Both the position numbers and the translations under genes were made by a program. The notes under the pieces are model-generated. The model had not been told where the DNA came from, did no database searches, and worked only from the letters and a program-made list of their open reading frames with translations. A stretch of 22,320 bases of DNA from a virus, in IMG/VR virus record IMGVR_UViG_3300035698_000917, positions 1-22,320 of that record. The stretch is one strand, 5' to 3'. Shown here piece after piece: positions 3 through 18,146 of this stretch (its first letter is position 1; each line of letters begins with the position of its first letter).

Positions 3-1124
3 TTCCCAGGCAACGGTGGTACTTTGTATTACGGCACAGTGTTGAGCACAGGCACAGTGAGTCAGTTGAATTACAATTGGAGCGGTGGATATATTTTAGA
101 CTCAGGCAGGAGTGACCGAGTGATCGTTAACTTCTATGGTTACATCACCATACCAGATACAGGTTCACAAGCCATACAATTCTATCTGTATGCTGATGAC
201 GGCGTTTACATGAAGATAGACGGCACAGTTGTTATCAATGATTGGAATGAACAGGGAGGTGCAACTTGGAATTATGTTTCCACGGACCAAACACTCACGG
301 GTGGTCAAACTTATTACATAGATGCTTGGTGGTATGAGAACGGTGGCGGTGCCTCTTTCAAATTATATTGGGACCAATCGGGTTCAGTAGCCTTGGTACC
401 CAGCTCAGCATATTCAACCACTGCACCTACACCCACTTCGGGTATCACTTCATCACAACAAACTATTGTAAACAATGCTAAGGCTAAAACAGGAGAAGGA
501 ATTTATATAGATCAAGCAGGTGATAATTTAGATTTAGATATAATACAAGACGGTGATAATAATTTAATTATAGGTACAGACTTATCTACAAACGCTCAAA
601 TTATAGGTGATGATAATACAATTAATATTCTACAAGAAAATGGAGGTAATGTATTAGGTTTAGATTTAAATGGTAACAACAATTTACTTAATATAGACCA
701 AAACCAAAATCAAACAGCATTAATTAATATAGTTGGGGATAGTAATGATGTGGCGTTAAATCAAATGCCGTATCTATCAGCAGGTGAACACTTTGCTGAT
801 GTAAATATACAAGGTGACAGCAATACTTTAAACCTCACTCAACAAGGTGTAGGAGATAAAATTTTATTTGTAGAAACAGGAAGTAATAATTCTGTTACTG
901 TAAATCAAAAAGATAATGGAGAACATTTTTTAGATATTAAACTTACCAATAATCATACAGTAGGTGTAGTACAAGAAGGTTCTGGCAATCATAGTGGCAC
1001 AATAGATTTAAGTGGCAATACAAGTTCAGTAGATTTACATCAACAAGGCAGTTCCAATCAAAACTATATTTTAGAACAACAATGTGCTTCAACAAGCTGT
1101 TCAACAACGGTGGTACAACAATGA
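3..1124 (+). CDS. PA14-domain plus curlin-repeat adhesin-like protein (5' partial)
   Basis: The reading frame is open to the left edge, so the N-terminus is missing; a TTG at 24 is internal. The first ~135 visible residues look like a PA14/GLEYA-type beta-sandwich (FYLYADDGVYMKIDG, then TYYIDAWWYENGGGASFKLYW), a fold often used for carbohydrate or surface binding. After a Thr/Pro/Ser linker (about residues 138-150 counted from the TTG), the rest is made of roughly seven units of ~22 residues of the form G-x-x-N, hydrophobic strand, Q, hydrophobic strand (GDDNTINILQ, GDSNTLNLTQ, GSNNSVTVNQ), as in curlin (CsgA/CsgB) repeats. The tail has two cysteines (CASTSC). It likely forms a beta-solenoid or amyloid-like surface or tail adhesin. 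GC drops from about 50% in the PA14 part to about 30% in the repeats, which suggests a domain fusion. The stop overlaps the start of the cyclase gene (ATGA). Domain calls are by eye; the role is inferred. Confidence 0.75.
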   Translation, partial: FPGNGGTLYYGTVLSTGTVSQLNYNWSGGYILDSGRSDRVIVNFYGYITIPDTGSQAIQFYLYADDGVYMKIDGTVVINDWNEQGGATWNYVSTDQTLTGGQTYYIDAWWYENGGGASFKLYWDQSGSVALVPSSAYSTTAPTPTSGITSSQQTIVNNAKAKTGEGIYIDQAGDNLDLDIIQDGDNNLIIGTDLSTNAQIIGDDNTINILQENGGNVLGLDLNGNNNLLNIDQNQNQTALINIVGDSNDVALNQMPYLSAGEHFADVNIQGDSNTLNLTQQGVGDKILFVETGSNNSVTVNQKDNGEHFLDIKLTNNHTVGVVQEGSGNHSGTIDLSGNTSSVDLHQQGSSNQNYILEQQCASTSCSTTVVQQ

Positions 1125-2971
1125 TAAAAAAAATATTAACACACTGGACATTTGCTTTTGTAACTTTATTTGTTTTAACATTTATAGGGTTAAAAGACCC
1201 ACAAGTAAAAGAAATATTACGATTAAAGTCCTTTGACTTATTACTTCAATCAGAAAAGAAAGAAGTATCAATAGATATAGGTGTTATAACCATTGATGAA
1301 AAGGCCATAGAAAAGTATGGACAATGGCCTTGGAAAAGAGATGTACTTGCCAATATCATTACTAAATTAAGAGAAGCTGAAGTTGGTATTATAGTGTTAC
1401 CTATTCTATTCGCAGAAAAAGATAGACTAGGTGGTGACGCTGTATTAGCAGAAACTATACGTGGTAATGGTGTTGTAATTGCTCAGACAGGAACCAATCA
1501 AATCAATAAAAATTCAGTACCAAGGGGGGTAGCAAAAATAGGTGACCCTCTGCCGTTCTTATTCGAATGGAAAGGTATGTTAGGACCAATTCCTATACTC
1601 GGAGAGAACGCTGATGGAGTAGGTGTAGTCAATACAGCACCAGAAATAGATGGTGTGATTAGGCGCATACCTTTGATAATGAAAATAGGTAATGAAACTT
1701 ATCCAGCGATGGCCATTGAAGTAATACGAGTAGCTACTCAAGCACCAAGTTATCAAATTAAATCAGGTCCTAGTGGTATTATTGCTATGAGAGTTCCTGG
1801 GTTTTCTACAATTGAAACTGATCCAAATGCTCGTATCTGGTTGAGATGGAATAAAGAGTATGAAACTATTAGTTTAGCAGATATAGACCAAGTTGGCAAG
1901 TGGAAAGGTCGTACAGTTATTGTTGCACCTACAGCAGAAGGATTAAATTCTATTGTTGCTACACCATTGGGCGAAAAGTATATGTATGAGATAACTGCCA
2001 ACACACTTCAAACAGTATTAGATGGTAAACAAATCAATAGATATGATTATAGTTTATTTTTAGAATTACTTATTTCGGTTGTAGTAGGATTGTTAATTGT
2101 AATACTTACAAGATTTACTCCTTATTGGTTTGTAGGTATTAAAATGATAGGTATGTATGTGGCAACTATCTATGCTTCGTATTATCTATTCCACAAATAT
2201 TCTATATTATCAGACGCAAGTTGGATTATTATTACTATAACAATTGTAGGATTTCATTCTGTATTTAATAGATTTATTTTAGAGTTTCAATTAAAACAAC
2301 AAATTAAGAAACAGTTTGAAAAATATTTAGACCCACGACAAGTTGCCATACTTCAAAAAAATCCTGAAAAAATAAGATTAGGTGGAGAAAGAAAAGAAAT
2401 GACTTTTTTATTTATGGACATTGTAGGGTTTACTCCAATATCTGAATACTATAAAAACAAAGATGATCCTGAAGGACTTGTCAAATTGATTAATGAATTT
2501 CTAAATGAGGTAAGTAAAATAATATTGAAAAATGGTGGAATGATAGATAAATATATGGGAGATTGTTGTATGGCGGTATTTGGAGCTCCTTTAGATATGA
2601 AAAACCACGCTGAAATGGCAATAAAATCTTGTATAGAGATAGAAAAAAAAGTAAAAGAACTTAAACTACTATATAAGGAAAGAGGATTGCCCGATATTAA
2701 TGTTGGCACAGGTGTGAATACAGGTATTGCTATTGTAGGTAATATGGGTTCAGAAACTAGATTTGACTACTCGGTAATTGGTGACGCTGTTAATTTGGCT
2801 GCTAGATTAGAAGCAACTGCTTGTAGGGGGGACTATAAAGATTATCCAACAATATATTCTAGTCATACTATGAAACAATTACCTAAAACAATTAAAAGTA
2901 AAAAGATTGGTGAAATAAAAGTTAAAGGTAAAGAAGAATTAATTAAGATTTACACTATAAAGGAGGACTAA
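1121..2971 (+). CDS. CHASE2-domain class III adenylate cyclase, membrane-bound
   Basis: Predicted 616-residue receptor cyclase making cAMP from ATP. It has an N-terminal membrane helix (residues ~7-24), a CHASE2-type extracytoplasmic sensor (~25-305, including the typical VITIDEKAIEKYGQWPW), three membrane helices (~312-385), a short linker, and a catalytic domain (~425-616). All catalytic residues are visible: metal-binding D433 (MDIVGFT) and D481 (DKYMGD), adenine-specifying K477 and D549 (DYSVIGD), and N558/R562 (NLAARLE). K plus D favours ATP over GTP. The ATG at 1121 is chosen because it overlaps the adhesin stop as ATGA and gives a normal signal-anchor N-terminus; the upstream ATG at 1082 would add 13 residues inside the adhesin gene. 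The coupling suggests the pair is made together. A cyclase of this type is unexpected in a phage. The family call is firm; the in vivo role is unknown. Confidence 0.93.
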   Translation: MIKKILTHWTFAFVTLFVLTFIGLKDPQVKEILRLKSFDLLLQSEKKEVSIDIGVITIDEKAIEKYGQWPWKRDVLANIITKLREAEVGIIVLPILFAEKDRLGGDAVLAETIRGNGVVIAQTGTNQINKNSVPRGVAKIGDPLPFLFEWKGMLGPIPILGENADGVGVVNTAPEIDGVIRRIPLIMKIGNETYPAMAIEVIRVATQAPSYQIKSGPSGIIAMRVPGFSTIETDPNARIWLRWNKEYETISLADIDQVGKWKGRTVIVAPTAEGLNSIVATPLGEKYMYEITANTLQTVLDGKQINRYDYSLFLELLISVVVGLLIVILTRFTPYWFVGIKMIGMYVATIYASYYLFHKYSILSDASWIIITITIVGFHSVFNRFILEFQLKQQIKKQFEKYLDPRQVAILQKNPEKIRLGGERKEMTFLFMDIVGFTPISEYYKNKDDPEGLVKLINEFLNEVSKIILKNGGMIDKYMGDCCMAVFGAPLDMKNHAEMAIKSCIEIEKKVKELKLLYKERGLPDINVGTGVNTGIAIVGNMGSETRFDYSVIGDAVNLAARLEATACRGDYKDYPTIYSSHTMKQLPKTIKSKKIGEIKVKGKEELIKIYTIKED

Positions 2972-2972
2972 T

Positions 2973-3083
2973 ATGTACTATGAAATACTTAATATGATAT
3001 TATGGGGAATAGTTATGCCATCGTGGATATCTATTTCGTTTTACCGATTTTGTATGAAGCTGAATCCATACTCGTTTAAATAA
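2973..3083 (+). CDS. Small putative membrane peptide (36 aa)
   Basis: A 36-codon frame beginning MYYEILNMILWGIVMPSWIS, with one central hydrophobic stretch (about residues 5-25) and a short basic tail, so it could be a single-span membrane peptide. A perfect AGGAGG (2961-2966) lies six bases before the ATG, one of the best ribosome binding sites in the window. The ATG is one base after the cyclase stop, so it would be translated from the same message. I do not recognise a family. A link to cyclase activity or localisation is only a guess from position. Confidence 0.6.
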   Translation: MYYEILNMILWGIVMPSWISISFYRFCMKLNPYSFK

Positions 3084-3126
3084 TATACGACAAGTAAGTT
3101 TTTTCTTTAACCAAACCAGGGGCTTT

Positions 3127-3321
3127 ATGATACTTCAACAAAGGAAGTTAAGAAAGTTTATATTTAAGATTATACGAAACGAAAAGAAAGCTAGATTATA
3201 TTTACTAAATCAAAACTGGATAAAAATTAGAAAACAAAAGGAAAGAAGAAGGAAAAGAACATTAGCGAAACTGTATAAAGCAAGAAGATTGAGATTATTT
3301 AATTTGTCAAAATCTGCTTAA
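3127..3321 (+). CDS. Small highly basic protein, unknown function (64 aa)
   Basis: A 64-residue frame unusually rich in Lys and Arg (for example KQKERRRKRTLAKLYKARRL), with interspersed Leu/Ile/Tyr and no acidic clusters. The pattern fits an amphipathic helical nucleic-acid- or ribosome-binding peptide, but no family is recognised. AGGGG (3118-3122) sits a few bases before the ATG as a weak ribosome binding site. It stands alone between two intergenic gaps. Composition alone can produce such frames in A-rich DNA, so moderate confidence only. Confidence 0.5.
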   Translation: MILQQRKLRKFIFKIIRNEKKARLYLLNQNWIKIRKQKERRRKRTLAKLYKARRLRLFNLSKSA

Positions 3322-3336
3322 CACTAAATAGGCATA

Positions 3337-3397
3337 TAAGTCAATATATATAAAGACGTGATGTCGGCGTATTCCCTATTGGGGCAAAATAGACTTA
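3337..3397 (+). other. Possible folded RNA element (three-way inverted-repeat arrangement)
   Basis: The ends are a perfect six-base inverted repeat (TAAGTC 3337-3342, GACTTA 3392-3397). Inside lie two further short hairpins: GAC/GTC (3355-3357/3363-3365) with a five-base loop, and CCC/GGG (3374-3376/3381-3383) with loop TATT. It occupies most of the ~104-base gap upstream of the coiled-coil gene. It does not match a tRNA. The stems are short, so this may be chance. Confidence 0.3.
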
Positions 3398-3425
3398 CCT
3401 AATCGCTTAACAGCAGAAAAACCAT

Positions 3426-3860
3426 ATGGACGATAACTACACTGAAATAGCAGGGATAAAAGTTAAATTAGAATCCCTATCAAAAGACATAGAGAATGTC
3501 AATAACATACAATCAAAACTTGATACTGCTATTGACAAACTAACAGACGTTTCGGGATCCATAAAATCTATGTTAGCGGTCCACGAAGAAAAAATTACCA
3601 GACAAGAAAAAGTAGATGAAATTATTTTTACAAAGATTCGAGATAGAGAAGATGAAATAGATACTGTTTATCGTGAATTAAAAAAAGATATTGAAATGAC
3701 CGAAAAAAGGTTATTATGTGAGATTAAATCATTAAGAAATGATATAGGCAGTAGAGTTGGGGTTTTAGAAAAATACCGTTGGATTATTATAGGTGGGGCC
3801 ATTGTTATTGGCTTCATATTATCAAAGAATTTCGCCACACTAGTTAGTATGATGGCCTAA
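3426..3860 (+). CDS. Coiled-coil protein with C-terminal membrane anchor
   Basis: A 144-residue protein. Residues ~5-115 are charged and heptad-like (VKLESLSKDIENVNNIQSKL and similar), with an overall long-coiled-coil look. A hydrophobic segment at ~118-135 (YRWIIIGGAIVIGFIL) is followed by a short tail, so it is tail-anchored with most of the protein on one side of the membrane. Phages use this layout for structural, lysis-related or membrane-tethering proteins, but nothing specific identifies it. The ribosome binding site is weak. It is followed directly by the promoter at 3866, so it is probably the last gene of its transcription unit. Confidence 0.75.
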   Translation: MDDNYTEIAGIKVKLESLSKDIENVNNIQSKLDTAIDKLTDVSGSIKSMLAVHEEKITRQEKVDEIIFTKIRDREDEIDTVYRELKKDIEMTEKRLLCEIKSLRNDIGSRVGVLEKYRWIIIGGAIVIGFILSKNFATLVSMMA

Positions 3861-3865
3861 AGAGC

Positions 3866-3894
3866 TTGACATTTTGAGTAATATGTAGTATATT
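3866..3894 (+). promoter_or_regulatory. Sigma-70-type promoter upstream of the primase gene
   Basis: Perfect -35 TTGACA (3866-3871), a 17-base spacer, and -10 TATATT (3889-3894). It lies in the 45-base gap between the coiled-coil gene and the primase. The expected transcription start is near 3901, only about five bases before the primase ATG at 3906, and no Shine-Dalgarno sequence is visible there. It is the only strong promoter I see ahead of the long gene run 3906-21093. Confidence 0.7.
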
Positions 3895-3905
3895 GTATAT
3901 GTGTT

Positions 3906-4916
3906 ATGTCGAGTTATATTGATTTAAAATTTATTAATTTATTGTCTTCCAGGTTGGAAAAGTTTGCAAGAAAAAACGATTACTTGTACAACTTTAGATG
4001 TCCTCATTGTGGAGACTCTCAAAAAAGCAAAAGCAAAGCAAGAGCATATTTTTATAGAGTTAAGAATGATATGTTTTTTAAATGCCATAATTGTGGAATG
4101 GGTCAAAACTTGGCCAATTTTATCAAATACCTTGATCCACAATTACACAACGAATTTATACTAGAACGGTATAAAGGGTCAGCGCCTGCGACACCGACCC
4201 CAAACTTTGACTTTAAACCACCAGTGTTTGAAGAAGTTGATATTATAGAAAAAGAATTGAAAACTATAGCAGAATTGCCTGAAGGCCATCCTGCTAGAGA
4301 ATATGTTATTAAAAGAAAAATACCTGAAAAATTTTTAGATGTATTATATTATACAGATAAATTTATGAATTTGGTTAATAAGATTAAACCAAACACGTTT
4401 AAAAATTTTAAAGGAGAACATCCAAGGCTGATAATACCTTTTTATGATACAACAGGCAATCTGTTTGCATTCCAAGGTAGAGCATTCGGCAATGAACAAC
4501 CAAAATATTTAACAATTAAATTAAATGAATCTAAACAAAAAATATACGGACTTGAAAGAATTAACTTCCAACAGCATATACATATTGTGGAAGGCCCAAT
4601 TGATTCTTTGTTTATTGATAATTGTTTGGCAGCTGGTGGAGCTGATTTACGGATTACTAATGTACAACCAAATAATATAACCTATATATTTGACAACGAA
4701 CCAAGAAACAAAGAAATAGTAAATAGAATGTATAAATTGGTAGAACAAGGTTATAATATATTTTTATGGCCAGATGAAATACAATCAAAAGATGTAAACG
4801 ATTTAATTCTTTCTGGCAAAACAATTGATGAGGTTAAAAAGATTATAAGTACCAACAACCACAAAGGGTTAGAAGCCATCACACGAATCAATAATTGGAA
4901 GAAATGCGAGATATGA
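3906..4916 (+). CDS. DNA primase (T4 gp61-like)
   Basis: A 336-residue primase that would make RNA primers for lagging-strand synthesis with the phage replicative helicase. The N-terminal zinc-binding region has C32-P-H-C35 and C60-H-N-C63 around a basic segment (GDSQKSKSKARAYFYR). A Toprim-type catalytic region follows, with E229 and D233 (VEGPIDS) and an acidic loop at D263-N-E265. The N-terminus resembles, from memory, primases of T4-like cyanophages, which supports the ATG at 3906. It follows a sigma-70 promoter so closely that the mRNA may be almost leaderless. Its TGA overlaps the nrdA ATG (ATGA). The family call is strong; no helicase gene lies in the window. Confidence 0.9.
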   Translation: MSSYIDLKFINLLSSRLEKFARKNDYLYNFRCPHCGDSQKSKSKARAYFYRVKNDMFFKCHNCGMGQNLANFIKYLDPQLHNEFILERYKGSAPATPTPNFDFKPPVFEEVDIIEKELKTIAELPEGHPAREYVIKRKIPEKFLDVLYYTDKFMNLVNKIKPNTFKNFKGEHPRLIIPFYDTTGNLFAFQGRAFGNEQPKYLTIKLNESKQKIYGLERINFQQHIHIVEGPIDSLFIDNCLAAGGADLRITNVQPNNITYIFDNEPRNKEIVNRMYKLVEQGYNIFLWPDEIQSKDVNDLILSGKTIDEVKKIISTNNHKGLEAITRINNWKKCEI

Positions 4917-7222
4917 AAGAAACAACTATACAAGTAAATAAAAGGAACGGCCGAGGATATGAAAACCTTAACATTGATAAGATTCACGAAATGGTTGAGT
5001 ACGCTTGTGAAAGCATATCAGGGGTTTCGTCATCACAAGTTGAAATGAATAGTGGTTTACAATTCTATGATGGAATTACTACAGACGATATACAACAAAT
5101 TTTAATTAAGTCTGCTTCAGATTTAATTTCTTTAGATAATCCAAATTACCAATACGTTGCAGCTAGACTATTATTATATAGTTTAAGAAAACAAGTATTC
5201 GGAAAACTTTGGGACCATCCACACTTTTATGAACACGTTGTAAAATGCCTTGACAAAAAAGTTTATGATCCTGAAATCACTTCTTGGTATGAGAAAAAAG
5301 ATTTTGATAGAATGGAAAATTGGTTAAACCACGAAAGAGATTACGATTTTACATATGCTGGATTAAGACAAGTTATAGACAAGTATCTGGTACAAGATAG
5401 AAGTAATGGTGAAGTTTTTGAAACTCCTCAATTTATGTATATGATGATATCTGCTACTTTGTTTGCAAAATATCCAAAAAATAAAAGAATGAATTATGTT
5501 AAGAAATACTATGACGCTATTTCTACATTTAAAATTAATATACCAACACCAGTGATGGCAGGAGTTAGAACTCCTATTAGACAATATGCTAGTTGCGTTT
5601 TGGTTGATGTTGGAGATACTTTGCCTAGTATTTTTAGTAGTGATATGGCTATCGGTAACTATGTTTCCCAAAGAGCAGGTATAGGTATCAATGCAGGTAG
5701 AATCAGAGGTATCAATAGTAGAATTAGAGGTGGTGAAGTACAACACACAGGTGTTATTCCTTTCCTTAAAAAATTCGAAGCAACAGTTAAATGTTGTACA
5801 CAAAATGGAGTTAGAGGTGGTTCAGCTACTGTTCATTTTCCTATTTGGCACCAAGAAATAAAAGATATTTTAGTATTAAAAAATAATAAAGGTAGTGAAG
5901 ACAATAGGGTTAGAAAATTAGATTACTCTATTCAATTATCAAAATTATTTTATGAAAGATTTATCAATGACGAAGATATTACATTATTTTCTCCACACGA
6001 AGTACCTGAATTGTATGAAGCTTGGGGCTCTCCAGAATTTGATGACCTATATGTAAAAGCGGAAAGAAAATCAAGTGTTAAAAAAACCAAAATAAAAGCA
6101 CAAGAAATATTTGGTGATATATTAAAAGAAAGAGCAGAAACAGGTCGTATCTATATTATGAATATTGACCACTGTAATACACACTCCAGTTTTAAAGATA
6201 GGATTACAATGTCAAACCTGTGCCAAGAGATCACACTTCCCACCTCTCCTATACAACATATAGATGGTGAAGGAGAGATTGCTCTATGTATTCTATCCGC
6301 AATCAACGTTGGTAAATTGCAACATTTGGATGATTTAGAAAACTTGTGTGATTTAACAGTTAGATCGTTAGAAGAAATTATTGACCATCAAAATTATCCT
6401 GTAAAGGCGGCTGAAATATCTACAAAGGCAAGAAGAAGTTTGGGGGTAGGATATATTGGCCTAGCACATTATCTAGCTAAATTGAAATTAAAATATAATG
6501 AGAAACAGGCTTGGAAGGAAGTAGATGAATTAACAGAAACATTCCAATTTTATCTATTAAAAGCAAGTAATAATATTGCAAAAGAAAAAGGACCTTGTGA
6601 ATTTTTCCATAGAACAAAATATTCAGATGGTATCTTACCAATTGATACTTACAAAAAAGAGGTAGATGAGATTGTAAATCGTAAACTATCTATGAAGTGG
6701 GAACAATTGAGAAAAGATATAAAAGAGTTTGGGTTACGACATAGCACACTCTCGGCCCAAATGCCATCCGAATCATCTAGCGTGGTTTCTAATGCTACAA
6801 ACGGCATTGAACCACCTAGAGATTATCTATCTATTAAGAAATCTAAAAAAGGTACATTGAAACAAATAGTACCTGATTATCAAAAGTATAAAAACTTTTA
6901 TACGTTATTATGGGATATGCCTAACAACACTGGATATATAAATATCGTTGCAGTAATGCAAAAATACTTTGACCAATCTATTAGTGGAAATTGGTCATAT
7001 AATCCTGAAAATTATGATGAAGGCCAAGTTCCGATTTCGGTAATGGCACAAGACTTGTTAACCACATATAAGTATGGTTGGAAAACATCTTATTATCAAA
7101 ATACATATGATGGTAAAAAAGATATTGACGATCCACAACATTCAATAGATTACGATACACCTATTGAAGAACCACAAGTTAAGGTAGAGGACGAGTCTGA
7201 TTGTGAGGCTTGTAATATTTAA
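4913..7222 (+). CDS. nrdA: Ribonucleoside-diphosphate reductase class Ia, alpha (large) subunit
   Basis: 769 residues, the usual size. It reduces ribonucleotides to deoxyribonucleotides together with NrdB. An N-terminal ATP-cone-like region (~residues 1-90) suggests allosteric control. Catalytic residues are all present: redox cysteines C228 (QYASCVL) and C459 (IALCILSAIN), thiyl-radical C437 with N435 and E439 (NLCQE), radical-transfer tyrosines Y727-Y728 (SYYQNT), and the C-terminal CEAC pair (C764, C767). The ATG at 4913 is chosen because it overlaps the primase TGA; ATG 4904 and TTG 4895 are also in frame but lie further inside the primase gene. No intein or frame break is seen. Confidence 0.97.
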   Translation: MKETTIQVNKRNGRGYENLNIDKIHEMVEYACESISGVSSSQVEMNSGLQFYDGITTDDIQQILIKSASDLISLDNPNYQYVAARLLLYSLRKQVFGKLWDHPHFYEHVVKCLDKKVYDPEITSWYEKKDFDRMENWLNHERDYDFTYAGLRQVIDKYLVQDRSNGEVFETPQFMYMMISATLFAKYPKNKRMNYVKKYYDAISTFKINIPTPVMAGVRTPIRQYASCVLVDVGDTLPSIFSSDMAIGNYVSQRAGIGINAGRIRGINSRIRGGEVQHTGVIPFLKKFEATVKCCTQNGVRGGSATVHFPIWHQEIKDILVLKNNKGSEDNRVRKLDYSIQLSKLFYERFINDEDITLFSPHEVPELYEAWGSPEFDDLYVKAERKSSVKKTKIKAQEIFGDILKERAETGRIYIMNIDHCNTHSSFKDRITMSNLCQEITLPTSPIQHIDGEGEIALCILSAINVGKLQHLDDLENLCDLTVRSLEEIIDHQNYPVKAAEISTKARRSLGVGYIGLAHYLAKLKLKYNEKQAWKEVDELTETFQFYLLKASNNIAKEKGPCEFFHRTKYSDGILPIDTYKKEVDEIVNRKLSMKWEQLRKDIKEFGLRHSTLSAQMPSESSSVVSNATNGIEPPRDYLSIKKSKKGTLKQIVPDYQKYKNFYTLLWDMPNNTGYINIVAVMQKYFDQSISGNWSYNPENYDEGQVPISVMAQDLLTTYKYGWKTSYYQNTYDGKKDIDDPQHSIDYDTPIEEPQVKVEDESDCEACNI

Positions 7223-7876
7223 ATGTCATTTTTATGTGCTAATTTACCACACGTAGAAGTTTTTATAAAAAAAGAATATCTGTATGACTTTGAGAAAGGT
7301 CACGGAGAATTGGTTGAAGGTGTTTGGGTAACTGTTAAGTCTATACAAGGTAGAGCATTATACTTTGAAACTTATATACCAGAATATGGTGCAGTATATG
7401 ACAAATTACCGTTATCAGCATTTGTATGGAAAAAAGACTTCGAAGGAGATTTAGATTTAGAAGAATTAGAATTATGGGATTGTTTCAGTTATGATATTAC
7501 AGTTATTGAAAAAAGATTACTCAAAGGACAAAGATCAAAATATTTTTCTCCAAGTAGAAAATGGCACGAAGGAATTTATATGTTTACAATAGATAGTTGT
7601 AATCCAGATAGTAATAGATTAAACACAACTTTTAGCGAGGTGCCAACACAACATAAATCTTTTAATATATTGAAATTAAACAATGGATACTTTGCAGCTC
7701 AACCAAATAATCGTATGCTGATATTAGATAAATCATATACACCTAAAACTTTAAAGTTTCCAGATTTTAAAGTATCATCCATTGAATATTCAGTGGAAGA
7801 TAAAGATAAATCAACATTTGGTGATGAAACAGAATTTTTTTATGGAATTAATAATAGTGAAAAGGAGAAAGAGTAA
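7223..7876 (+). CDS. Conserved-looking phage protein of unknown function between nrdA and nrdB
   Basis: A 217-residue protein whose ATG follows the nrdA stop with no gap; its stop overlaps the nrdB start (TAATG). It begins MSFLCANLPHVEVFIKKEYL and includes well-formed beta-strand-like stretches (GVWVTVKSIQGRALYFETYI), with no transmembrane segment, no cysteine cluster and no nucleotide-binding motif I can recognise. I have an impression that similar proteins sit between nrdA and nrdB in marine T4-like phages, but cannot check it. Its fixed place suggests a role tied to nucleotide reduction or early DNA metabolism. The gene is real by context; function unknown. Confidence 0.85.
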   Translation: MSFLCANLPHVEVFIKKEYLYDFEKGHGELVEGVWVTVKSIQGRALYFETYIPEYGAVYDKLPLSAFVWKKDFEGDLDLEELELWDCFSYDITVIEKRLLKGQRSKYFSPSRKWHEGIYMFTIDSCNPDSNRLNTTFSEVPTQHKSFNILKLNNGYFAAQPNNRMLILDKSYTPKTLKFPDFKVSSIEYSVEDKDKSTFGDETEFFYGINNSEKEKE

Positions 7877-8979
7877 TGGCAAAAAGTGTATTTAACAAAA
7901 CAAAGGGAATAGATTCAACCAAGCAGATGATGTTTTTTGGACCTGATTTAGCGGTTCAACGGTATGATGAGATGAAATATCCTATCTTTGATAAGTTAAA
8001 TCAACAACAACTTGGTTACTTTTGGAGACCTGAAGAAATATCTTTACAGAAAGATAGAAACGATTATCAAAATTTAACTGAACAGCAGAAATTTATCTTT
8101 ACATCTAATCTGAAATATCAAACAATGTTAGATAGTGTACAAGGTAGAGGACCTTGTTTAGCATTTTTACCTTTTTGTTCCTTACCTGAACTAGAGGGTT
8201 GTATTGTAACCTGGGATTTTATTGAAACTATACATAGTAGAAGTTATACGTATGTTATTAAAAATCTATATGCTAATCCAGGAGAAGTTTTTGATACCAT
8301 ACTTGAGGATGAAAGAATTGAAAGAAGAGCAGCTAGTGTTACAAAAACCTATGATGATTTAATTAAAATGGGATATCAATGGACACTTACACCAGATAAA
8401 GTTAATATGTATGAATTAAAGAAAAGATTATACCTTGCTATGGTATCAGTTAATATATTAGAGGGTTTACGATTCTATGTATCGTTTGCTTGTAGCTTTG
8501 CTTTTGGCGAACTTAAACTACTAGAAGGATCAGCAAAGATTATTTCATTTATTGCTAGAGATGAAAGTCAACATCTAGCAATGTCACAAACAATAATTAA
8601 TAATTGGAAAGACCGAGAAAATGATAAAGAGATGTTAAAGGTTATTAAAGATTCAGAAAAAGAAGTTTTAAAGATGTATGAAGAAGCCGTTGGTGAAGAA
8701 AAACGCTGGGCAACTTATCTATTCTCTAAAGGTTCTATGATAGGGTTATCTGAAAAGTTGTTACATCAATTTGTTGAGTATATGGCAAATAGAAGAATGA
8801 AAGCTATACAATTAACACCAGCGTATGAACAAAAAACCAATCCACTGCCTTGGGTAGATCATTGGTTGAATAGTAGAAGTTTGCAAAACGCACCACAAGA
8901 AACAGAAATTGAAAGTTATGTTATCGGTGGAATCAAACAAGACGTACAAAAAGATCAATTTAAAAAGTTTAAACTATAA
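7876..8979 (+). CDS. nrdB: Ribonucleoside-diphosphate reductase class Ia, beta (small) subunit
   Basis: 367 residues. It houses the diiron-tyrosyl radical cofactor that activates NrdA. Iron ligands D86 (MLDSVQGR), E117 and H120 (IETIHSRSY), E196 (NILEGLRF), E230 and H233 (ARDESQHL) are all visible, and the radical tyrosine is Y124. The presence of Y124 and full ligation indicates a classical class Ia protein. The C-terminus ends FKKFKL, consistent with the flexible tail that docks on NrdA. AGGAG at 7863-7867 precedes the ATG, which overlaps the upstream stop. The downstream zinc-ribbon gene starts in the same TAATG manner. Confidence 0.97.
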   Translation: MAKSVFNKTKGIDSTKQMMFFGPDLAVQRYDEMKYPIFDKLNQQQLGYFWRPEEISLQKDRNDYQNLTEQQKFIFTSNLKYQTMLDSVQGRGPCLAFLPFCSLPELEGCIVTWDFIETIHSRSYTYVIKNLYANPGEVFDTILEDERIERRAASVTKTYDDLIKMGYQWTLTPDKVNMYELKKRLYLAMVSVNILEGLRFYVSFACSFAFGELKLLEGSAKIISFIARDESQHLAMSQTIINNWKDRENDKEMLKVIKDSEKEVLKMYEEAVGEEKRWATYLFSKGSMIGLSEKLLHQFVEYMANRRMKAIQLTPAYEQKTNPLPWVDHWLNSRSLQNAPQETEIESYVIGGIKQDVQKDQFKKFKL

Positions 8980-9711: not shown

Positions 9712-10099
9712 ACAACATCACACTGATATTAAATTTAAGGTAATAGAAATTCCTTTAAAGGAAATTCGTATTATACCACCATTAGATTGGATAGAAAAAC
9801 GTAGTAAAGAATTTGATTATCAAACTAGTTTTGATAAACACGGAATGTTATGGCCAATAGTAGTTACTTCACACAAGCCACAGTGGGTAGTAGATAGAAT
9901 ATTACCTAAAAATCCTCACCATAAAGATATTACAGGAAACTTACTTCCTTATTTATATGTACACGTTGGAAATAAGAGGGTACTGTATGCTAATAAAATG
10001 GGTTATGATAGAATTGAAGGATATTTGGTCACAGAACATAAAGATAAAATAATGATAAAAAACTTACAACATATAGACCACAAAGAAATACCTAAATGA
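9692..10099 (+). CDS. ParB/sulfiredoxin-like domain protein
   Basis: A 135-residue protein. The order of motifs resembles the ParB N-terminal/sulfiredoxin fold: IEIPLKEIRIIPP (start strand), FDKHGMLWPIVV (47-58, as in 'hG...PI.V'), then GNKRVLYANKMGYDRIEGYL (93-112, as in 'G.+R..A....G...I...L'). Members include DNA-binding CTPases, nucleases and ATP-dependent enzymes, so activity cannot be assigned; no C-terminal HTH is present, making chromosome partition unlikely. The ATG at 9692 overlaps the RuvC-like gene; the TTG at 9662 in the same frame is less likely. Its TGA overlaps the start of the first glycan gene. Confidence 0.55.
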   Translation: MKILRAKQHHTDIKFKVIEIPLKEIRIIPPLDWIEKRSKEFDYQTSFDKHGMLWPIVVTSHKPQWVVDRILPKNPHHKDITGNLLPYLYVHVGNKRVLYANKMGYDRIEGYLVTEHKDKIMIKNLQHIDHKEIPK

Positions 10100-11148
10100 A
10101 ATTAACTATTATCAACAATTCAGGTGTCTGTAAAGATATATACAATAGTTTTTCAAATTTGTTATCTTCGGGAAAGAAAAAAGCGCAAGAAAGTAAAGTC
10201 TATAAAATTAATATCAGACATCATAAAGAAGCTAATGGAAATGTAAGTTTTTTTGAGGATCCAATTTTGACTTATACCGACTTATGGAATATTCAAACCT
10301 CAGACGCAATCGTAATATTCGGTACTTGGGGTAGTGTTGACCAGAATAGAATATGGCATCCTACCGATAATAAAAGAAGACAAGCCTGGCTTAATAATGT
10401 TAATGGATTTTTTACCAATCTAGCAAAATCTTATGGTATTAAAATAATTGTAATAGAAACAGGAACCCTATGCAGAAGTAGAGTTGCTTTCATTGGAGGT
10501 CACTGGAAGGAAAAATCTCCTAGATATTATAGAATGGGGCTTAATCATTGGACTTATGGACTTGCCAAATTCATTAACCCAAAAGGAAGAAAAAAAAGAG
10601 TAGCTAAGTTTAGAAATAGTTTTAGAAATAAAGAATTTGAAAACCAAGTTGATAATTTTGAATGGAAAAATAATAAAGAGGGAAAAATAGTAATTTTAAC
10701 AGGATTGGAAAATGATCCTACATCCACAATGCTAATACCGGATTTTGTAAAATCAAGTGTAAATGAGATAAGAAAACATACAGATAGAACAATTGCTCTT
10801 AAACCACATCCAAGTAGCGAGTATATACCTGATAAGGAATTAGGATTAGAAATAATAAAAAAAGAAATTTCTTTAAAGGATATATCTTCTGATATGTATT
10901 GTGCTGTGTTAGACAATAGTACATCCATATTTGAACTAATATTTTTGGGTATACCTACATTTACACAAAAGCATAGCTTTGGTTATAACTTAGGCAATAA
11001 TGATTTATCTAAAATAAATAATATACATTATGCTACAAGAGAAGTAATAAATGATTGGATTGTTGAAATGTCTTGGACAGAATTTACAGAACAAGAATAT
11101 GCTTCCGCAGTAATGCCTGGGTATGTAAAGGAATTGCTAGATGAATAA
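10096..11148 (+). CDS. Putative GT-B-type glycosyltransferase / surface polysaccharide protein (family member 1 of 3)
   Basis: A 350-residue protein. The N-terminal half has Rossmann-like strands (DAIVIFGTWGSV; IKIIVIETGTL). The C-terminal half has K236-P-H-P (ALKPHPSSEY) and N274-S-T-S-I-F-E-L followed by FLGIP, a pattern of capsule- and CDP-glycerol-type transferases in which the S/T-rich helix binds the donor phosphate. Near the C-terminus is W-x-EFTEQE. The same layout is seen in the genes at 18818 and 19620, so I treat the three as one family. Donor and acceptor are unknown. The ATG overlaps the upstream TGA; the stop overlaps the oxygenase gene by eight bases. Confidence 0.55.
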   Translation: MKLTIINNSGVCKDIYNSFSNLLSSGKKKAQESKVYKINIRHHKEANGNVSFFEDPILTYTDLWNIQTSDAIVIFGTWGSVDQNRIWHPTDNKRRQAWLNNVNGFFTNLAKSYGIKIIVIETGTLCRSRVAFIGGHWKEKSPRYYRMGLNHWTYGLAKFINPKGRKKRVAKFRNSFRNKEFENQVDNFEWKNNKEGKIVILTGLENDPTSTMLIPDFVKSSVNEIRKHTDRTIALKPHPSSEYIPDKELGLEIIKKEISLKDISSDMYCAVLDNSTSIFELIFLGIPTFTQKHSFGYNLGNNDLSKINNIHYATREVINDWIVEMSWTEFTEQEYASAVMPGYVKELLDE

Positions 11149-11818
11149 AATATTGAATATTACAGACACGCAACTGTTGGTAAAAGAAGGATATAATCCT
11201 CATTTATATATGAATGAATTTATTAATAATGAATATTACAAAAAATTATTAAATGAATTTCCTAATGATGATCTATTTACAGAAGAGCAACCAAAAACCC
11301 GAAAATTAGGCCAAAGACCTCATTGCCGTAGGTTTATGTGTATAACAACAGAAAAAGAAAGTCCTTATTTTGATGATTACATTATAAATCAAACGAAATT
11401 GCCAATGATATGGCAAGAGATATTAACAGAAATAAAAGGTGAAGAATATAGAAAATGGATTTGTGATATGTTACAAATTAAAGATTTCAGAATAAGATTT
11501 GATTTTCATAGAACAGAAAGTGGACTAGATGTTTCTCCTCACGTAGATAGTGTAGGCAAGTATGCCTCCCACCTGTTGTACTTTATGCCTGAAGAATGGA
11601 ATGACGATAATGGAGGTTCTACCATTTTCTATAGTGGTAAAACAATAGATAAATTAAATCCAGAACCTACTGATTTTAAACAATCAGTTTTATATCCGGT
11701 GATAGGAAATTCATCACTACTATTTAAAAATGTTCCAGATGGCTGGCACGGCATAACAGAAGTTAAAGCAAACAATATGTCCAGACAATTATGTAATGTA
11801 GTAATATTAAAAAAATGA
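11141..11818 (+). CDS. 2OG-Fe(II) dioxygenase (prolyl-4-hydroxylase-like)
   Basis: A 225-residue protein that likely uses 2-oxoglutarate and oxygen to hydroxylate a substrate. The iron-binding triad is visible: H134-V-D136 (SPHVDSVGKYASHLLYF), distal H203 (DGWHGITEV) and the 2-oxoglutarate-binding R215 (MSRQLCNVV). The HVD...H...R order and the GGSTIFY strand are standard. The substrate could be a protein, sugar or nucleobase; its place among glycan genes favours a sugar or surface substrate. Start overlaps the upstream gene and the stop overlaps the FkbM gene (ATGA). Confidence 0.85.
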   Translation: MNKILNITDTQLLVKEGYNPHLYMNEFINNEYYKKLLNEFPNDDLFTEEQPKTRKLGQRPHCRRFMCITTEKESPYFDDYIINQTKLPMIWQEILTEIKGEEYRKWICDMLQIKDFRIRFDFHRTESGLDVSPHVDSVGKYASHLLYFMPEEWNDDNGGSTIFYSGKTIDKLNPEPTDFKQSVLYPVIGNSSLLFKNVPDGWHGITEVKANNMSRQLCNVVILKK

Positions 11819-12537
11819 AACAAACAATATATAATCAATCAGGTGCAAAAGTAGATTATGAAATACCTTACGAAGAAGTGGGTAATATAAAATTTCATAA
11901 TGTTGGTAGAGTTATAGATAAAAGAATAAAATCATTTTATACTAAAGAACCAAAAACATTGCAGTGGATTGATTCATTTGAACCAAACAGTATGGTTGTT
12001 GATGTTGGAGCTAACATTGGAGTATATTCTTTATATGCAGGTAAATTAGGACATAAAGTTTATGCCTTTGAACCACAAGCATTAAACTTTGCCGAATTAT
12101 ATACAAACATTTATTTGAACAAATTAGCAGATAATATAATGGGGTACAACATTGCTTTAAACAACAAAAATTCAATAGAATATTTAAGCCTATTATCAAT
12201 GGTGCCTGGCCAATCTCATAATGATTTTGCTTTAGATATAGAAAATCAATTGAAACAAGGTTGTGTAGGATTTACATTAGACCACCTTGTCAATACGAAA
12301 GTAATACCTCAACCAAAATATTTAAAAATAGATGTAGATGGTTTAGAAAAATCTGTAGTGGAAGGCAGTATAGAAACTATCAAAAATTGTAAATCTGTTT
12401 TAATTGAATTAACAGGAAATAAAAATGAAAAAGAAACACTAACAATGATTGAGAGTTGTGGTTTTAAATTAGATGATAGTATGACCTATAAATTAAGTAA
12501 GACAGAAACAAATTATATATTAAGGAGTAGCATATAA
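11815..12537 (+). CDS. FkbM-family SAM-dependent methyltransferase
   Basis: A 240-residue protein with SAM-binding motif I at 61-69 (VVDVGANIG), the acidic end of strand 2 in FEP (85-87), and the FkbM signature KIDVDGLE (171-178) followed by IELTG. FkbM enzymes O-methylate sugars and small molecules, commonly in glycan clusters, fitting the cassette. The motif set is complete. Its start overlaps the oxygenase stop by four bases (ATGA), and the asnB-type gene starts one base after its stop. Confidence 0.9.
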   Translation: MKQTIYNQSGAKVDYEIPYEEVGNIKFHNVGRVIDKRIKSFYTKEPKTLQWIDSFEPNSMVVDVGANIGVYSLYAGKLGHKVYAFEPQALNFAELYTNIYLNKLADNIMGYNIALNNKNSIEYLSLLSMVPGQSHNDFALDIENQLKQGCVGFTLDHLVNTKVIPQPKYLKIDVDGLEKSVVEGSIETIKNCKSVLIELTGNKNEKETLTMIESCGFKLDDSMTYKLSKTETNYILRSSI

Positions 12538-12538
12538 T

Positions 12539-14362
12539 ATGTGTGCAATTCACGGTATAATAGGTAATAGAGAATCTATCATTGAACATATGATACAGGC
12601 AGCTCATCATAGGGGGCCTGATGGCAATGGTAAATGGAAAGATGATGATGTAACACTTGGCCATAACTTATTATCAATTGTTGATACAGAAACCAATTCA
12701 CAACAACCTTGGATACACGAAGATTTAGTTTTGACTTATAATGGGGAGATATATAATTATAAAGAATTACAAACAGAACTTAATTATGAATTTACCACAA
12801 ATGCAGACACGGAAGTTTTAGCAGTAGGATTAAAAAAATTTGGAATAGAATTTATTGAAAAATTGGATGGTATGTTTGCCTTTGCTTGTTATAATAGAAC
12901 AACAAAAGAACTTATATTAGCTAGAGATAGTAGTGGATGTAAACCTCTGTATTATGGTCACAAAGAAGGAATGCTCCACTTTTCATCCGAAATTAAAAGT
13001 TTGTTATCAGCAGGATTTGACAGAAAAATTTGTAAACAAGCATTTAAACATTACTACAACCAAGGATACAATTCAGGATATTTAACTTTATTTGAAGGTA
13101 TCAAAAAATTAGTCCCAGGCCAAATTAATGTAATAAATGTTAAGACAAATGAAAAAAAATATTACAACATAAACAATAAAAAAATACCATTAATAACTGG
13201 TAATCCACAAGAACTTGCTGAAGAATTAAGAAATAGAATACATAAGGCTGTTAAAATGACCTTAATGGGTCGTAGAGAGATTGGTTTGTTTTTAAGTGGT
13301 GGTATAGACAGTACATCTATTTTATATGAGATGATACAATCTGGAGTTAAACCAAGCACATTTACATCAAACTTTTCTACAACATTACCAGGTAGTATGT
13401 TGAATGAGGATTCAGAAGTTGCCAAACAATATTGTGATGAATTGCAAATAGAAAATAATAGACTTCATCAAAATGAAGCAGATTTTGTTAATGCAATGGA
13501 TGATACATTTTATGCTTTAGAAGAACCTAAACAAGGCAAAAGCTTTCCTACTTACTACAATACAAACAAGTTCCTGGCAAGTAAAGGTGTTACAGTAACT
13601 TTGAGTGGAGATGGTGGAGATGAATTGTTGATAGGATATAAACATCACGGTTTAGGTCATTGGACAACTAAAGTAAATTCATTAAGAATGAATCATAGAG
13701 GATTAAAAAATGAAGAATTACAAATAACCCTAGATGAACAAATACAATATTTGAACAAATGGTTGCCACAAGGAGGAATACAAGGTGATAATATAAACGA
13801 TATGATGTACATTGAATCTTTAAATTCTTTATGTGAGGATTTTTTAATTAGAAATGATAAACTAGGTATGCACTTTAGTATGGAGGCTAGATTTCCTCTT
13901 ATGTGTAACATTGTTAAAGATTTTGCAAGAAGTATTCCATCTTATATTAAAGCTGATATGGCCACATATGTTGCAGGAGATAAGATAACTAAGGTGGGTA
14001 AACGAATTATACATAAGGCTTTATTTAAACAAGCATATAGAAATCGATTGCCTGATTATATATTAAATAAAAACAAATCTGGATGGAGATTTCCTACAGA
14101 TGAAATATTAATAGGAACACAAGATCATCCAGGAAAAAATGACAGTGTATTAAGATTATATATAATTGAAACTTTAAAAGACAAAGAGGTTAGAGAATTA
14201 TTTGAATTAGATGATAACATAATTAACAATATATTTTTAAACAATGAAACATATGTTCCAGAAACAGGTAGTAAATACCCTCCTGGAGTATTAAAACAAA
14301 AAGAACTATTTACCATACTGAATTTTGCTATATGGAAAAAAGTATATAAAATGAGTATATAA
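12539..14362 (+). CDS. asnB: Asparagine synthetase-type, glutamine-hydrolysing amidotransferase
   Basis: 607 residues, the usual size. The N-terminal glutaminase (class II) domain starts with nucleophile C2 (MCAIHGIIG), with RGPDG (25-29) and N68-G-E (YNGEIYNY). The synthetase domain has the PP-loop S253-GGIDST and DGGDE. It would form asparagine from aspartate using glutamine and ATP. In polysaccharide clusters AsnB-type enzymes can instead amidate uronic acids, which fits the position, so the substrate is open. AGGAG (12523-12527) lies eleven bases ahead of the ATG. No truncation or missing key residue was noticed. Confidence 0.9.
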   Translation: MCAIHGIIGNRESIIEHMIQAAHHRGPDGNGKWKDDDVTLGHNLLSIVDTETNSQQPWIHEDLVLTYNGEIYNYKELQTELNYEFTTNADTEVLAVGLKKFGIEFIEKLDGMFAFACYNRTTKELILARDSSGCKPLYYGHKEGMLHFSSEIKSLLSAGFDRKICKQAFKHYYNQGYNSGYLTLFEGIKKLVPGQINVINVKTNEKKYYNINNKKIPLITGNPQELAEELRNRIHKAVKMTLMGRREIGLFLSGGIDSTSILYEMIQSGVKPSTFTSNFSTTLPGSMLNEDSEVAKQYCDELQIENNRLHQNEADFVNAMDDTFYALEEPKQGKSFPTYYNTNKFLASKGVTVTLSGDGGDELLIGYKHHGLGHWTTKVNSLRMNHRGLKNEELQITLDEQIQYLNKWLPQGGIQGDNINDMMYIESLNSLCEDFLIRNDKLGMHFSMEARFPLMCNIVKDFARSIPSYIKADMATYVAGDKITKVGKRIIHKALFKQAYRNRLPDYILNKNKSGWRFPTDEILIGTQDHPGKNDSVLRLYIIETLKDKEVRELFELDDNIINNIFLNNETYVPETGSKYPPGVLKQKELFTILNFAIWKKVYKMSI

Positions 14363-14377
14363 CACAAGAGGATAACA

Positions 14378-14908
14378 ATGAAGCATTTAGGTGGACATAA
14401 AGGAAGAACACATATTGATAAAGGTATATTGCAATTTGCAAAAGAGGTATTAGACTGTAAATCAGTCGTAGATATTGGTTGTGGACCTGGTGGTCAGGTA
14501 TACGAAGCACTAAATTTAGGTATGAATGCTATGGGAGTTGATGGAGATACTACTTTAAAATGGGAAAAACCAATACATTTTATACGACACGATTTTACAG
14601 AATCGTCATTAGAACATAAAGAAGTTGATATGGTGTGGTGTTGTGAATTTATAGAACACGTAGAAGAAAAGTATATTCCTAATTATATGTCTATAATGAA
14701 ATCAGCTAAATATGTTTTTGTTACATATTCAGAACCAGGAAAACCAGGACATCATCACGTAAATTGTCAACCAAAACAATATTGGATAGATATATTTAAT
14801 GAAAATGGTTTTGATTATGCAGAAAATTTAACAGTAACATCAAAAGAATATAGTACAATGGTACGAGAATTTTGGAACGAAAACGGTTTAATATTTAAAA
14901 GGAGATAA
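14378..14908 (+). CDS. Class I SAM-dependent methyltransferase
   Basis: A compact 176-residue enzyme. Motif I is VVDIGCGPGG (30-39), motif II region MGVDGD (52-57), and the motif IV/V-like VDMVWCCEFIEHVEE (83-97) matches the common 'D.v.c.evieHv' pattern of small-molecule methyltransferases. PGHHHVNCQP follows. The substrate is unknown; the neighbours suggest a sugar. AGAGG (14367-14371) precedes the ATG. Confidence 0.88.
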   Translation: MKHLGGHKGRTHIDKGILQFAKEVLDCKSVVDIGCGPGGQVYEALNLGMNAMGVDGDTTLKWEKPIHFIRHDFTESSLEHKEVDMVWCCEFIEHVEEKYIPNYMSIMKSAKYVFVTYSEPGKPGHHHVNCQPKQYWIDIFNENGFDYAENLTVTSKEYSTMVREFWNENGLIFKRR

Positions 14909-14909
14909 T

Positions 14910-16067
14910 ATGAAATATCCATTAGCGTGTGATACGTGGGACAATAGAGAAGTTGAAGCAATACAAGAAGTAGTCAAAACAGGTCGTTATACTATGGGGC
15001 CTTATGTAAAGAAATTTGAAAAAGAATTTTGCGATTATTTTAAATGCAATGACGCAGTTATGGTTAACAGCGGATCATCAGCTAATCTGTTGATGTTAGC
15101 TACGCTAGCACTAAAACATAAATTAAAAGGAGATATTATAGTACCTGCTGTTAGTTGGTCAACAACATATTATCCTTTACAACAATATGGTTTTAAATTA
15201 AACTTTGTAGATATTGATAAAAGTACCTTAAATATTGATCCTAGTAAAATAGAAAAAGCAATAACTAAGGACACGTGTGCTATTTTTGCTGTAAATTTAT
15301 TAGGCAATTCTTGTGAATATAAAAAGATTAATGAAATTGCCGAGAAACACAATCTTATGGTAATAGAAGACAATTGCGAAAGTTTAGGTGCAATATCAGA
15401 TACGGATATTTACAATGGAGTTGTGGGACATATGGGTAGTTATTCGTTCTTCTTCAGCCACCATTTACAAACAATGGAAGGTGGTATGATTGCTTGTAAA
15501 AGCAAAGATGACGCCGACTTTATTAGATCGTTAAGAGCTCACGGTTGGTGTAGGGATTTACCAGATGATAATACCATTTACAAAAAATCTGGAGATACCT
15601 TCGTAGATAGTTTCACTTTTATTACACCTGGATATAGTGTAAGACCACTAGAAATGAGTGGTGCAATTGGTAGTGTACAACTTAAAAAATGGCCCGAGAT
15701 GAGAGAACAAAGAGTTAAGAACGCAGAATACTTTAAACAAAAATTTAAAGACCTGCCAGATGTACAATTACAAGAAGAAGTAGGCAATTCTAGTTGGTTC
15801 GGGTTTTCTATGGTATTCAATGGCAATTTAAGTGGTAGAAGAGCTAAGATTGTAGAGAAATTTAAAGAGAATGAAATAGAAAGTAGACCAATTGTTGCAG
15901 GTAATTTTATGAAGAATCCTGTAATAAAATATTTAGACTATATAGATAACAAAGATTACAATGTTGCAGATTACATACACGACAATGGTTTGTTTATAGG
16001 TAATGATGTGAGAGATTTAAAAGATAATATAGATATGGTTTACAACATAATAAAGGATATAAAATGA
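14910..16067 (+). CDS. DegT/StrS-fold PLP enzyme, ColD-like GDP-4-keto-6-deoxymannose 3-dehydrase (putative)
   Basis: A 385-residue DegT/DnrJ/EryC1/StrS family protein. The SGSSANLL (55-62) and IEDNCESLG motifs bind the cofactor phosphate and ring. In aminotransferases a lysine sits seven residues before the first G of the EGG motif; here that position is H184 (SFFFSHHLQTMEGGM) and no Lys is nearby. Replacement of the lysine by His is the mark of ColD and RfbH, which remove the C3 hydroxyl of 4-keto-6-deoxy sugars using PMP. RfbH also needs an iron-sulfur cysteine cluster, which I do not see, so ColD is the better match. The next gene makes the expected substrate. Expected product: GDP-4-keto-3,6-dideoxymannose. 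No ColC-like reductase lies in the window. Function inferred from H184 and context. Confidence 0.75.
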   Translation: MKYPLACDTWDNREVEAIQEVVKTGRYTMGPYVKKFEKEFCDYFKCNDAVMVNSGSSANLLMLATLALKHKLKGDIIVPAVSWSTTYYPLQQYGFKLNFVDIDKSTLNIDPSKIEKAITKDTCAIFAVNLLGNSCEYKKINEIAEKHNLMVIEDNCESLGAISDTDIYNGVVGHMGSYSFFFSHHLQTMEGGMIACKSKDDADFIRSLRAHGWCRDLPDDNTIYKKSGDTFVDSFTFITPGYSVRPLEMSGAIGSVQLKKWPEMREQRVKNAEYFKQKFKDLPDVQLQEEVGNSSWFGFSMVFNGNLSGRRAKIVEKFKENEIESRPIVAGNFMKNPVIKYLDYIDNKDYNVADYIHDNGLFIGNDVRDLKDNIDMVYNIIKDIK

Positions 16068-17792: not shown

Positions 17793-17793
17793 T

Positions 17794-18144: not shown

Positions 18145-18146
18145 AT

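Follow-up and report, generated by a model that had tools for sequence, protein, structure and literature searches.

The first gene of the phage sequence studied here raises the question of why a virus would join a PA14 domain to amyloid-type curlin repeats, and where such a protein would act. The sequence, hereafter the window, is a whole IMG/VR record of 22,320 bp and represents a fragment of a T4-like marine phage; 15% of its length, in the primase-ribonucleotide reductase region, is 77% identical to Pelagibacter phage Mosig. The open reading frame (ORF) at positions 3-1124 (+ strand) encodes 373 aa, the 5' end of the gene being cut off by the start of the record. The fusion of a PA14 domain to curlin-like repeats, which the first-pass annotation had proposed for this ORF, is borne out by two Pfam families that both score above their curated cut-offs (PA14, PF07691, 37.3 bits against a cut-off of 24; Curlin_rpt, PF07012, 38.9 bits against 20.7, in three stretches). 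We consider it fairly probable that the product of this ORF is the second curlin subunit within a curli (type VIII secretion) cassette that the phage carries, and that it bears a surface-displayed, swappable glycan-binding head. This reading builds on the architecture of the protein, the gene order, the signal peptide, the exchange of modules and purifying selection, all of which are observed. The features are listed in Table 1; the position of this gene, between a FecR-type gene and a cyclase gene in relatives, is called slot 2 below, and numbers beginning with L denote individual loci.

Table 1. The PA14-curlin gene and its downstream neighbour in the window.
Feature	Position (nt)	Strand	Basis
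PA14 head, 5'-truncated	3..440	+	Pfam PA14 at residues 21-126 (nt 63-380); fold of the L003 homologue
Head-stalk linker, S/T/Q-rich	441..491	+	Alignment of relatives
Curlin-repeat stalk (residues 164-373), about 8-9 two-strand units; ends in C...C and a VVQQ terminus	492..1121	+	Pfam, repeat statistics, beta-strand array in the model
Stop codon; overlaps the cyclase gene start (ATGA)	1122..1124	+	Sequence
CHASE2 + class III adenylate/guanylate cyclase, next cassette gene	1121..2971	+	Pfam CHASE2 151.9 bits, Guanylate_cyc 71 bits

The repeats of the stalk can be recognized in several ways. Composition shuffles contain beta-x-beta-x-Q 2.2 times on average, whereas the stalk has it 12 times (0 of 5000 shuffles reach 12); for beta-x-beta-x-GxxN the numbers are 0.32 and 3 (11 of 5000 reach 3). 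The autocorrelation of G, N and Q peaks at lags 11 and 22, a signal that is mildly significant when taken alone (77 of 5000 shuffles are as high). Counted by eye, the stalk holds about 8-9 two-strand units of ~22 residues each, compared to the about seven repeats of the first-pass annotation. Two cysteines lie within the last 30 residues in 90 of 91 slot-2 proteins.

Eight viral contigs encode close relatives of the ORF. The three that are complete (L003, L004 and L005) open with a hydrophobic signal peptide whose last residues are A-x-A, followed by the PA14 domain, the linker and the stalk. Compared to L003, the window ORF lacks about 42 residues, which comprise the Sec signal peptide (...KVKA/D) and the first PA14 strand; the signal peptide is thus seen in the full-length relatives and is absent from the window ORF through 5' truncation. 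Of 74 distinct full-length slot-2 proteins, 70 begin with what a simple pattern recognizes as a signal peptide; of the other four, one is a frameshift fragment, and the others seem to have a start called too early or a shorter signal. Recovery of the missing 5' end through relatives, a check recommended at the outset, therefore yields a Sec signal peptide and no tail-attachment domain. Separately, the PA14-curlin gene at L007 5875-7123 (the same contig was also recorded as L016 and L093) is frameshifted relative to its near-copy in L003, which could reflect an assembly error or a broken allele.

For structure prediction we used the mature protein of L003, the closest complete relative (69% identity to the window ORF over the aligned part), in place of the truncated window ORF, with an alignment of 32 rows. 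The AlphaFold2 model is of moderate confidence (mean pLDDT 73.5, pTM 0.58) and consists of a beta-sandwich followed by short strands, which are evenly spaced in the stalk at about every 11 residues. Residues 1-156 match PA14 folds with Z 15-18 and rmsd 2.1-2.8 over 135-148 residues; the best matches are the PA14 ectodomains of RsgI (Z 17.7-17.9), and the Marinomonas PA14 domains with bound sugars, from bacterial RTX adhesins, also match (Z 15.6-16.1). All 13 PA14 rows that reach the relevant alignment column contain a DDG motif, which we take to be the adjacent Asp pair that binds Ca. The predicted sandwich resembles sugar-binding PA14 domains, in keeping with the suggestion that an amyloid-type stalk is here combined with a head of glycan-binding type. 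The repeat region itself is predicted to adopt the solenoid-like fold that had been anticipated, and the stalk of a relative with a different head (L035; AlphaFold2, mean pLDDT 72.2) matches the beta-helix of SufB/SufD (Z 17.2, 191 residues).

The surroundings of the gene are known from its relatives. In HTVC008M the order is csgF, csgG, a curlin gene labelled 'CsgB', a FecR-type gene, AGE60352.1 and the cyclase; Melnitz, a phage of OM43, has the same gene order, and both have the same cyclase neighbour downstream as the window. The evidence for csgG and csgF comes from relatives, as the upstream genes lie outside the window itself: csgF-csgG-csgA-fecR is found directly upstream of slot 2 in 64 of 65 distinct relatives with more than 3.5 kb of upstream sequence, and in 8 of 8 PA14-headed ones, the sole exception among the 65 being a fragment of a frameshifted gene. 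No csgE is annotated in the regions of HTVC008M and Melnitz that were viewed, and CsgE is reported as absent from pelagiphages in passages of PMC9599517. Among phage-collection isolates, a CsgG relative with the cassette occurs only in HTVC008M and four Melnitz strains (seven records have a CsgG relative, HTVC008M being represented twice among them and a 1.5-kb Salmonella record once), and only HTVC008M has a PA14 head. The 1.5-kb record OR851715.1 (Salmonella phage S.Kent 1-2-1), which carries a csgG gene, is probably host DNA.

The cassette also varies in ways that do not involve the heads. A gene for a 247-aa secreted protein, which to us is reminiscent of SoxY, lies between fecR and the slot-2 curlin gene at L144 6094-6837, L145 5704-6447 and L151 5739-6482, and the start of a copy is present in L140. 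Small genes occur between slot 2 and the cyclase at L030 3256-4085, L055 1137-1918 and L056 3092-3415; presumably these are ferredoxin-like and iron-sulfur-assembly-like. Farther downstream, window positions 10096-21093 encode an FkbM methyltransferase, an asparagine synthase-like protein, a DegT aminotransferase, a GDP-mannose dehydratase, a cupin and a GT8 protein, a glycan-type run of the hypervariable surface-modification type reported for pelagimyophages. The idea that this run makes or changes the sugar met by the head finds no support in its distribution: a homologue of the GDP-mannose dehydratase is present in 1 of 25 related records, many of which are fragments, and in none of the 8 PA14-headed ones.

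To survey the heads, slot-2 genes were labelled at 118 loci by profiles and regular expressions and checked by eye, with L161, L165 and L166 assigned as headless and L024 as Rossmann; the contig with the frameshifted PA14 gene (L007, L016, L093) was left out of the final counts. The loci come from two profile scans of viral contigs, with cyclase and FecR alignments, and because the best 80 of 499 and the best 80 of 461 confirmed loci were used, the counts describe close relatives and are not a census. The 73 distinct full-length slot-2 proteins of these close relatives comprise 27 with a Rossmann-type head (441-497 aa), 13 with a PA14 head (417-474 aa), 2 with another beta-rich head (432 aa), and 21 short (111-146 aa) and 10 long (263-341 aa) proteins without a head. 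That many phages have only a short or a long headless subunit in this slot implies that the head is not essential, a point against the reading favoured here. The third head (L089 4297-5592, L090 3133-4428) is beta-rich, spans ~200 residues and sits on the same stalk; Pfam has no family for it or for the Rossmann-type head. The Rossmann-type head is GIFT/ThuA-like: its structural matches in the L035 model are to IFT52, OST48/Wbp1 and ThuA-like folds (Z 14-16, with 188-199 residues aligned), and Foldseek alone gives weak matches (best E 2.5e-3). GIFT domains (GldG, IFT52, Wbp1) are proposed as sugar binders in passages of PMC7226087. From these fold matches and this literature, two unrelated head folds, one a known and the other a proposed sugar binder, are placed on the same type of stalk.

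Pairwise comparisons suggest that the heads have a history of their own. The window and L003 agree at 400 of 420 DNA positions in the head (95.2%, nt 3-422) but at 432 of 702 in the rest of the gene (61.5%; Fisher p 8e-42). The same pattern is found in HTVC008M and L034 (96.7% versus 67.5%) and in L116 and L087 (96.4% versus 66.8%), and it is reversed between L034, with a PA14 head, and L045, with a Rossmann head, whose stalk regions are 88.8% identical and whose heads are 43.7% identical. Between the headless L109 and the PA14-headed L110, identity is 98.7% across the 3839 bp that end with the signal peptide; the two are unrelated through the remainder of the slot-2 gene and the spacer, and identity returns to 97.8% in the 3534 bp that begin with the cyclase. 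These two near-identical loci, which over the compared stretch differ only in the slot-2 gene, represent natural allele replacements.

The phylogenies of the flanking genes point in the same direction. On a quick tree of FecR (72 rows) the head type needs 21 changes, with a minimum of 4, and PA14 needs 10 changes for 11 rows, 9 of them forced by supported branches. On a quick tree of the cyclase (65 rows) the head type needs 23 changes, and PA14 needs 10 for 12 rows, all of them forced. As expected for near relatives, the head labels are clustered compared to shuffled labels (means of 36.0 for the FecR tree and 34.5 for the cyclase tree); the PA14 label alone is unclustered, 230 and 92 of 500 shuffles being as low. 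Judged from these sequence comparisons, the heads recombine independently of the stalk and the flanks. Between PA14 pairs, dN/dS ranges from 0.11 to 0.75 in the heads and from 0.05 to 0.38 in the stalks, and is below 1 in all 21 computable of 22 comparisons, which places PA14 head and stalk alike under purifying selection.

We also considered L012 as a head swap of the window and rejected this interpretation. The two align as a mosaic over window positions 1120-8536, with 98.5% identity in the cyclase, 71-79% through the coiled-coil, primase and ribonucleotide reductase large-subunit region, and 95.4% from position 7222. Only a different small gene (also present in L020 and L087) is visible upstream in L012, which therefore illustrates no more than a replacement or insertion at the boundary. 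A search for a bacterial source of the fusion matched 1 of 289 alphaproteobacterial genomes to the alignment (model positions 67-239 of 286, which we read as stalk), and a plasmid search returned one distant match, to the PA14 region.

The FecR-type protein encoded next to slot 2 contains a PF04773 domain (Pfam, L003) and ends like a curlin subunit. The terminus [VI]x[IVFL]xQ is present in 85 of 86 distinct phage FecR proteins, compared to 2.7% of shuffled tails, and the full two-strand curlin pattern occupies the tail in 80 of the 86, compared to a shuffle rate of 0.4%; all 79 CsgA-like proteins have the same terminus. A FecR-like gene is adjacent and on the same strand at 27 of 77 bacterial CHASE2-cyclase loci. 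Profiles detected curli genes at 0 of these 77 loci, and 0 of 29 bacterial FecR-like neighbours of CHASE2 cyclases carry the terminus. Three loci, L171-L173, are outside the count of 77; the cyclases of L171 and L172 are phage-like and the contig of L173 carries the same cassette. L172 and L173, which hold a whole or partial phage-type cassette in Flavobacteriaceae and Pirellulales MAG contigs, are probably mis-binned phage. From the sequences we infer that the phage FecR protein is the envelope partner of the cyclase, and its curlin repeat could dock it to the fibre. The name 'FecR' would then denote a fibre-linked cyclase partner and not an iron regulator.

Taken together, these observations allow a mechanism to be outlined, in which we infer the export route, fibre membership, sugar binding, surface display, the link to cAMP and the purpose. 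The protein would be made during infection, pass the inner membrane with the help of its signal peptide and leave through the phage's own CsgG/CsgF pore, a route that would require CsgG to let through a head of the size of PA14. The curlin stalk would then join, or nucleate beside, the CsgA-like subunit, so that the infected cell would present the N-terminal PA14 domain on its surface, as a head that binds glycans in a Ca-dependent manner. The slot-2 protein could occupy the fibre tip, be a minor subunit along the fibre, act as nucleator, or be a free surface protein. The signal peptide and the type of stalk are shared, and recombination between related phages replaces what lies between them: a PA14 head, a GIFT-like one, another, or none. 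Such a surface might bind other host cells nearby (aggregation, 'sibling capture'), competing phages or particles. The FecR protein, whose end is a single curlin repeat, may link the fibre both to the envelope and to the CHASE2 cyclase, whose cAMP output would then signal the status of fibre or head. That the head is replaceable suggests selection on what the surface binds, and the swapping of domains among related viruses suggests that infected cells display exchangeable sticky heads. A more speculative extension, which we hold only tentatively, is that phages of the most abundant bacteria in the ocean run an exchangeable lectin display, made of exported curli-type amyloid subunits, whose heads are swapped like tail-fibre tips and whose curli fibre is coupled by FecR to the CHASE2 cyclase, so that host stickiness would be both reprogrammed and sensed.

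The FecR and cyclase genes admit a different interpretation, which we regard as unlikely: the slot-2 protein would be a periplasmic or outer-membrane sensor that provides ligand input to FecR and the CHASE2 cyclase, its stalk docked to the curlin tail of FecR, and the output would be cAMP and not adhesion. The slot-2 gene does lie between these two genes in the ordered relatives, the FecR tail is a curlin repeat, and the bacterial loci that pair FecR-like genes with CHASE2 cyclases without curli (27 of 77) suggest a signalling module in its own right; in Burkholderia a FecR/CHASE2-kinase operon affects biofilm, according to passages of PMC5192318. However, the conserved csgF and csgG alongside argue for export, and a CsgA-like partner would be superfluous for a mere sensor. 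Passages in the literature on marine phage curli genes that are absent from hosts propose sibling capture, lysis timing, nutrient uptake and superinfection exclusion as purposes. If CsgG/CsgF served lysis timing, as passages of Buchholz et al. (PMC9004378) propose for Melnitz from CsgGF models and synteny, the curlin proteins might be a plug, gate or cargo of the pore and the heads incidental; this we consider improbable. Those passages state that csgA and csgB are missing in Melnitz, yet two curlin-repeat genes flank fecR in that phage, a finding that revises Buchholz et al. on the missing fibre genes, and an incidental part would not be expected to be exchanged repeatedly while under purifying selection. 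The same paper reports no clumping in Melnitz-infected cultures, which counts against the surface-display reading, but the Melnitz allele is headless.

Least probable, in our view, is a virion adhesin, that is, a tail fibre or a decoration of the capsid whose head binds glycans, even though predicted proteins of other phages also have PA14 heads, the heads swap like receptor-binding modules, and the cassette of HTVC008M adjoins tail and baseplate genes. The signal peptide, the csg neighbours, the curlin stalk, and the lack of a tail-attachment domain and of a PHROG tail family argue against it. PHROGs contained no family for the slot-2 gene in scans of the window ORF and of 10 proteins of relatives; the NCBIfam scan of relatives covered 8 proteins. 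We rejected the tail-fibre reading on the signal peptide, the csg neighbours and the missing PHROG tail match, and the Sec signal peptide together with the place in the csgF-csgG-csgA-fecR cassette distinguishes the full-length protein from a standard tail fibre, the outcome on which the first-pass annotation would have been abandoned. The best reading is an exported lectin displayed on curli, since sugar binding is known or has been proposed for each of the two named folds. An exchangeable and probably sugar-binding head on one of the curlin subunits speaks for specific recognition at the surface, and its alleles lend themselves to testing.

The csgF-csgG-csgA-fecR-[slot 2]-cyclase cassette itself is already known from pelagimyophages. 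The 'second CsgA/B' of the pelagiphage type VIII secretion system described in passages of PMC9599517 (2022) is in the same slot, a second curlin-repeat gene after FecR and before an adenylate cyclase. The main text of that paper, in the passages concerned, mentions neither PA14, GIFT, carbohydrate nor lectin, and neither a head nor head exchange; PA14 likewise goes unmentioned in the main texts of all three papers on the cassette, PMC9004378 among them. In the open-licence PMC literature we found no paper that brings together phage, curlin and the PA14 domain, and as far as we found nothing is in print on a head-bearing, head-swapping subunit of this cassette or on a FecR curlin tail. Public data probably contain the architecture already, although we found no remark on it, since uncultured Caudovirales are the source of A0A6J7WGW2, a predicted viral 'PA14 domain-containing' protein of 442 aa (aligned over 460 columns), and of several predicted 'Curlin associated' proteins. 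The closest named counterpart is AGE60352.1 of HTVC008M, which has a PA14 domain on a curlin stalk in the same FecR-type/cyclase slot (46.8% identity over 97% of the window ORF), but its head is of PA14 subtype 2, and in its record it is an unannotated hypothetical protein.

Among cellular proteins, the PA14 anti-sigma ectodomains of RsgI (PDB 6qe7, 6qdi) are the top sequence and fold match for the head, but RsgI is a membrane signalling protein of clostridia and has no curlin. Bacterial CsgA and CsgB share with the slot-2 protein the curlin repeats, the Sec signal and the CsgG/CsgF partners, and there is a weak match to the CsgB model; unlike them, the slot-2 protein has an N-terminal globular head, a C-terminal Cys pair and a different repeat consensus, and its gene is accompanied by FecR and cyclase partners, with no CsgE found in the viewed regions of HTVC008M and Melnitz. 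The stalks of RTX adhesins and of yeast flocculins and epithelial adhesins are RTX/Ig or Ser/Thr-rich. With the PA14 domains of an RTX adhesin (Marinomonas, PDB 6x7z; 6m8m) and of yeast Flo5/Epa1 the phage head has in common the fold, the DDG motif and the adhesin role of the domain, whereas the identity is 10-21% and the stalk of the phage protein is curlin.
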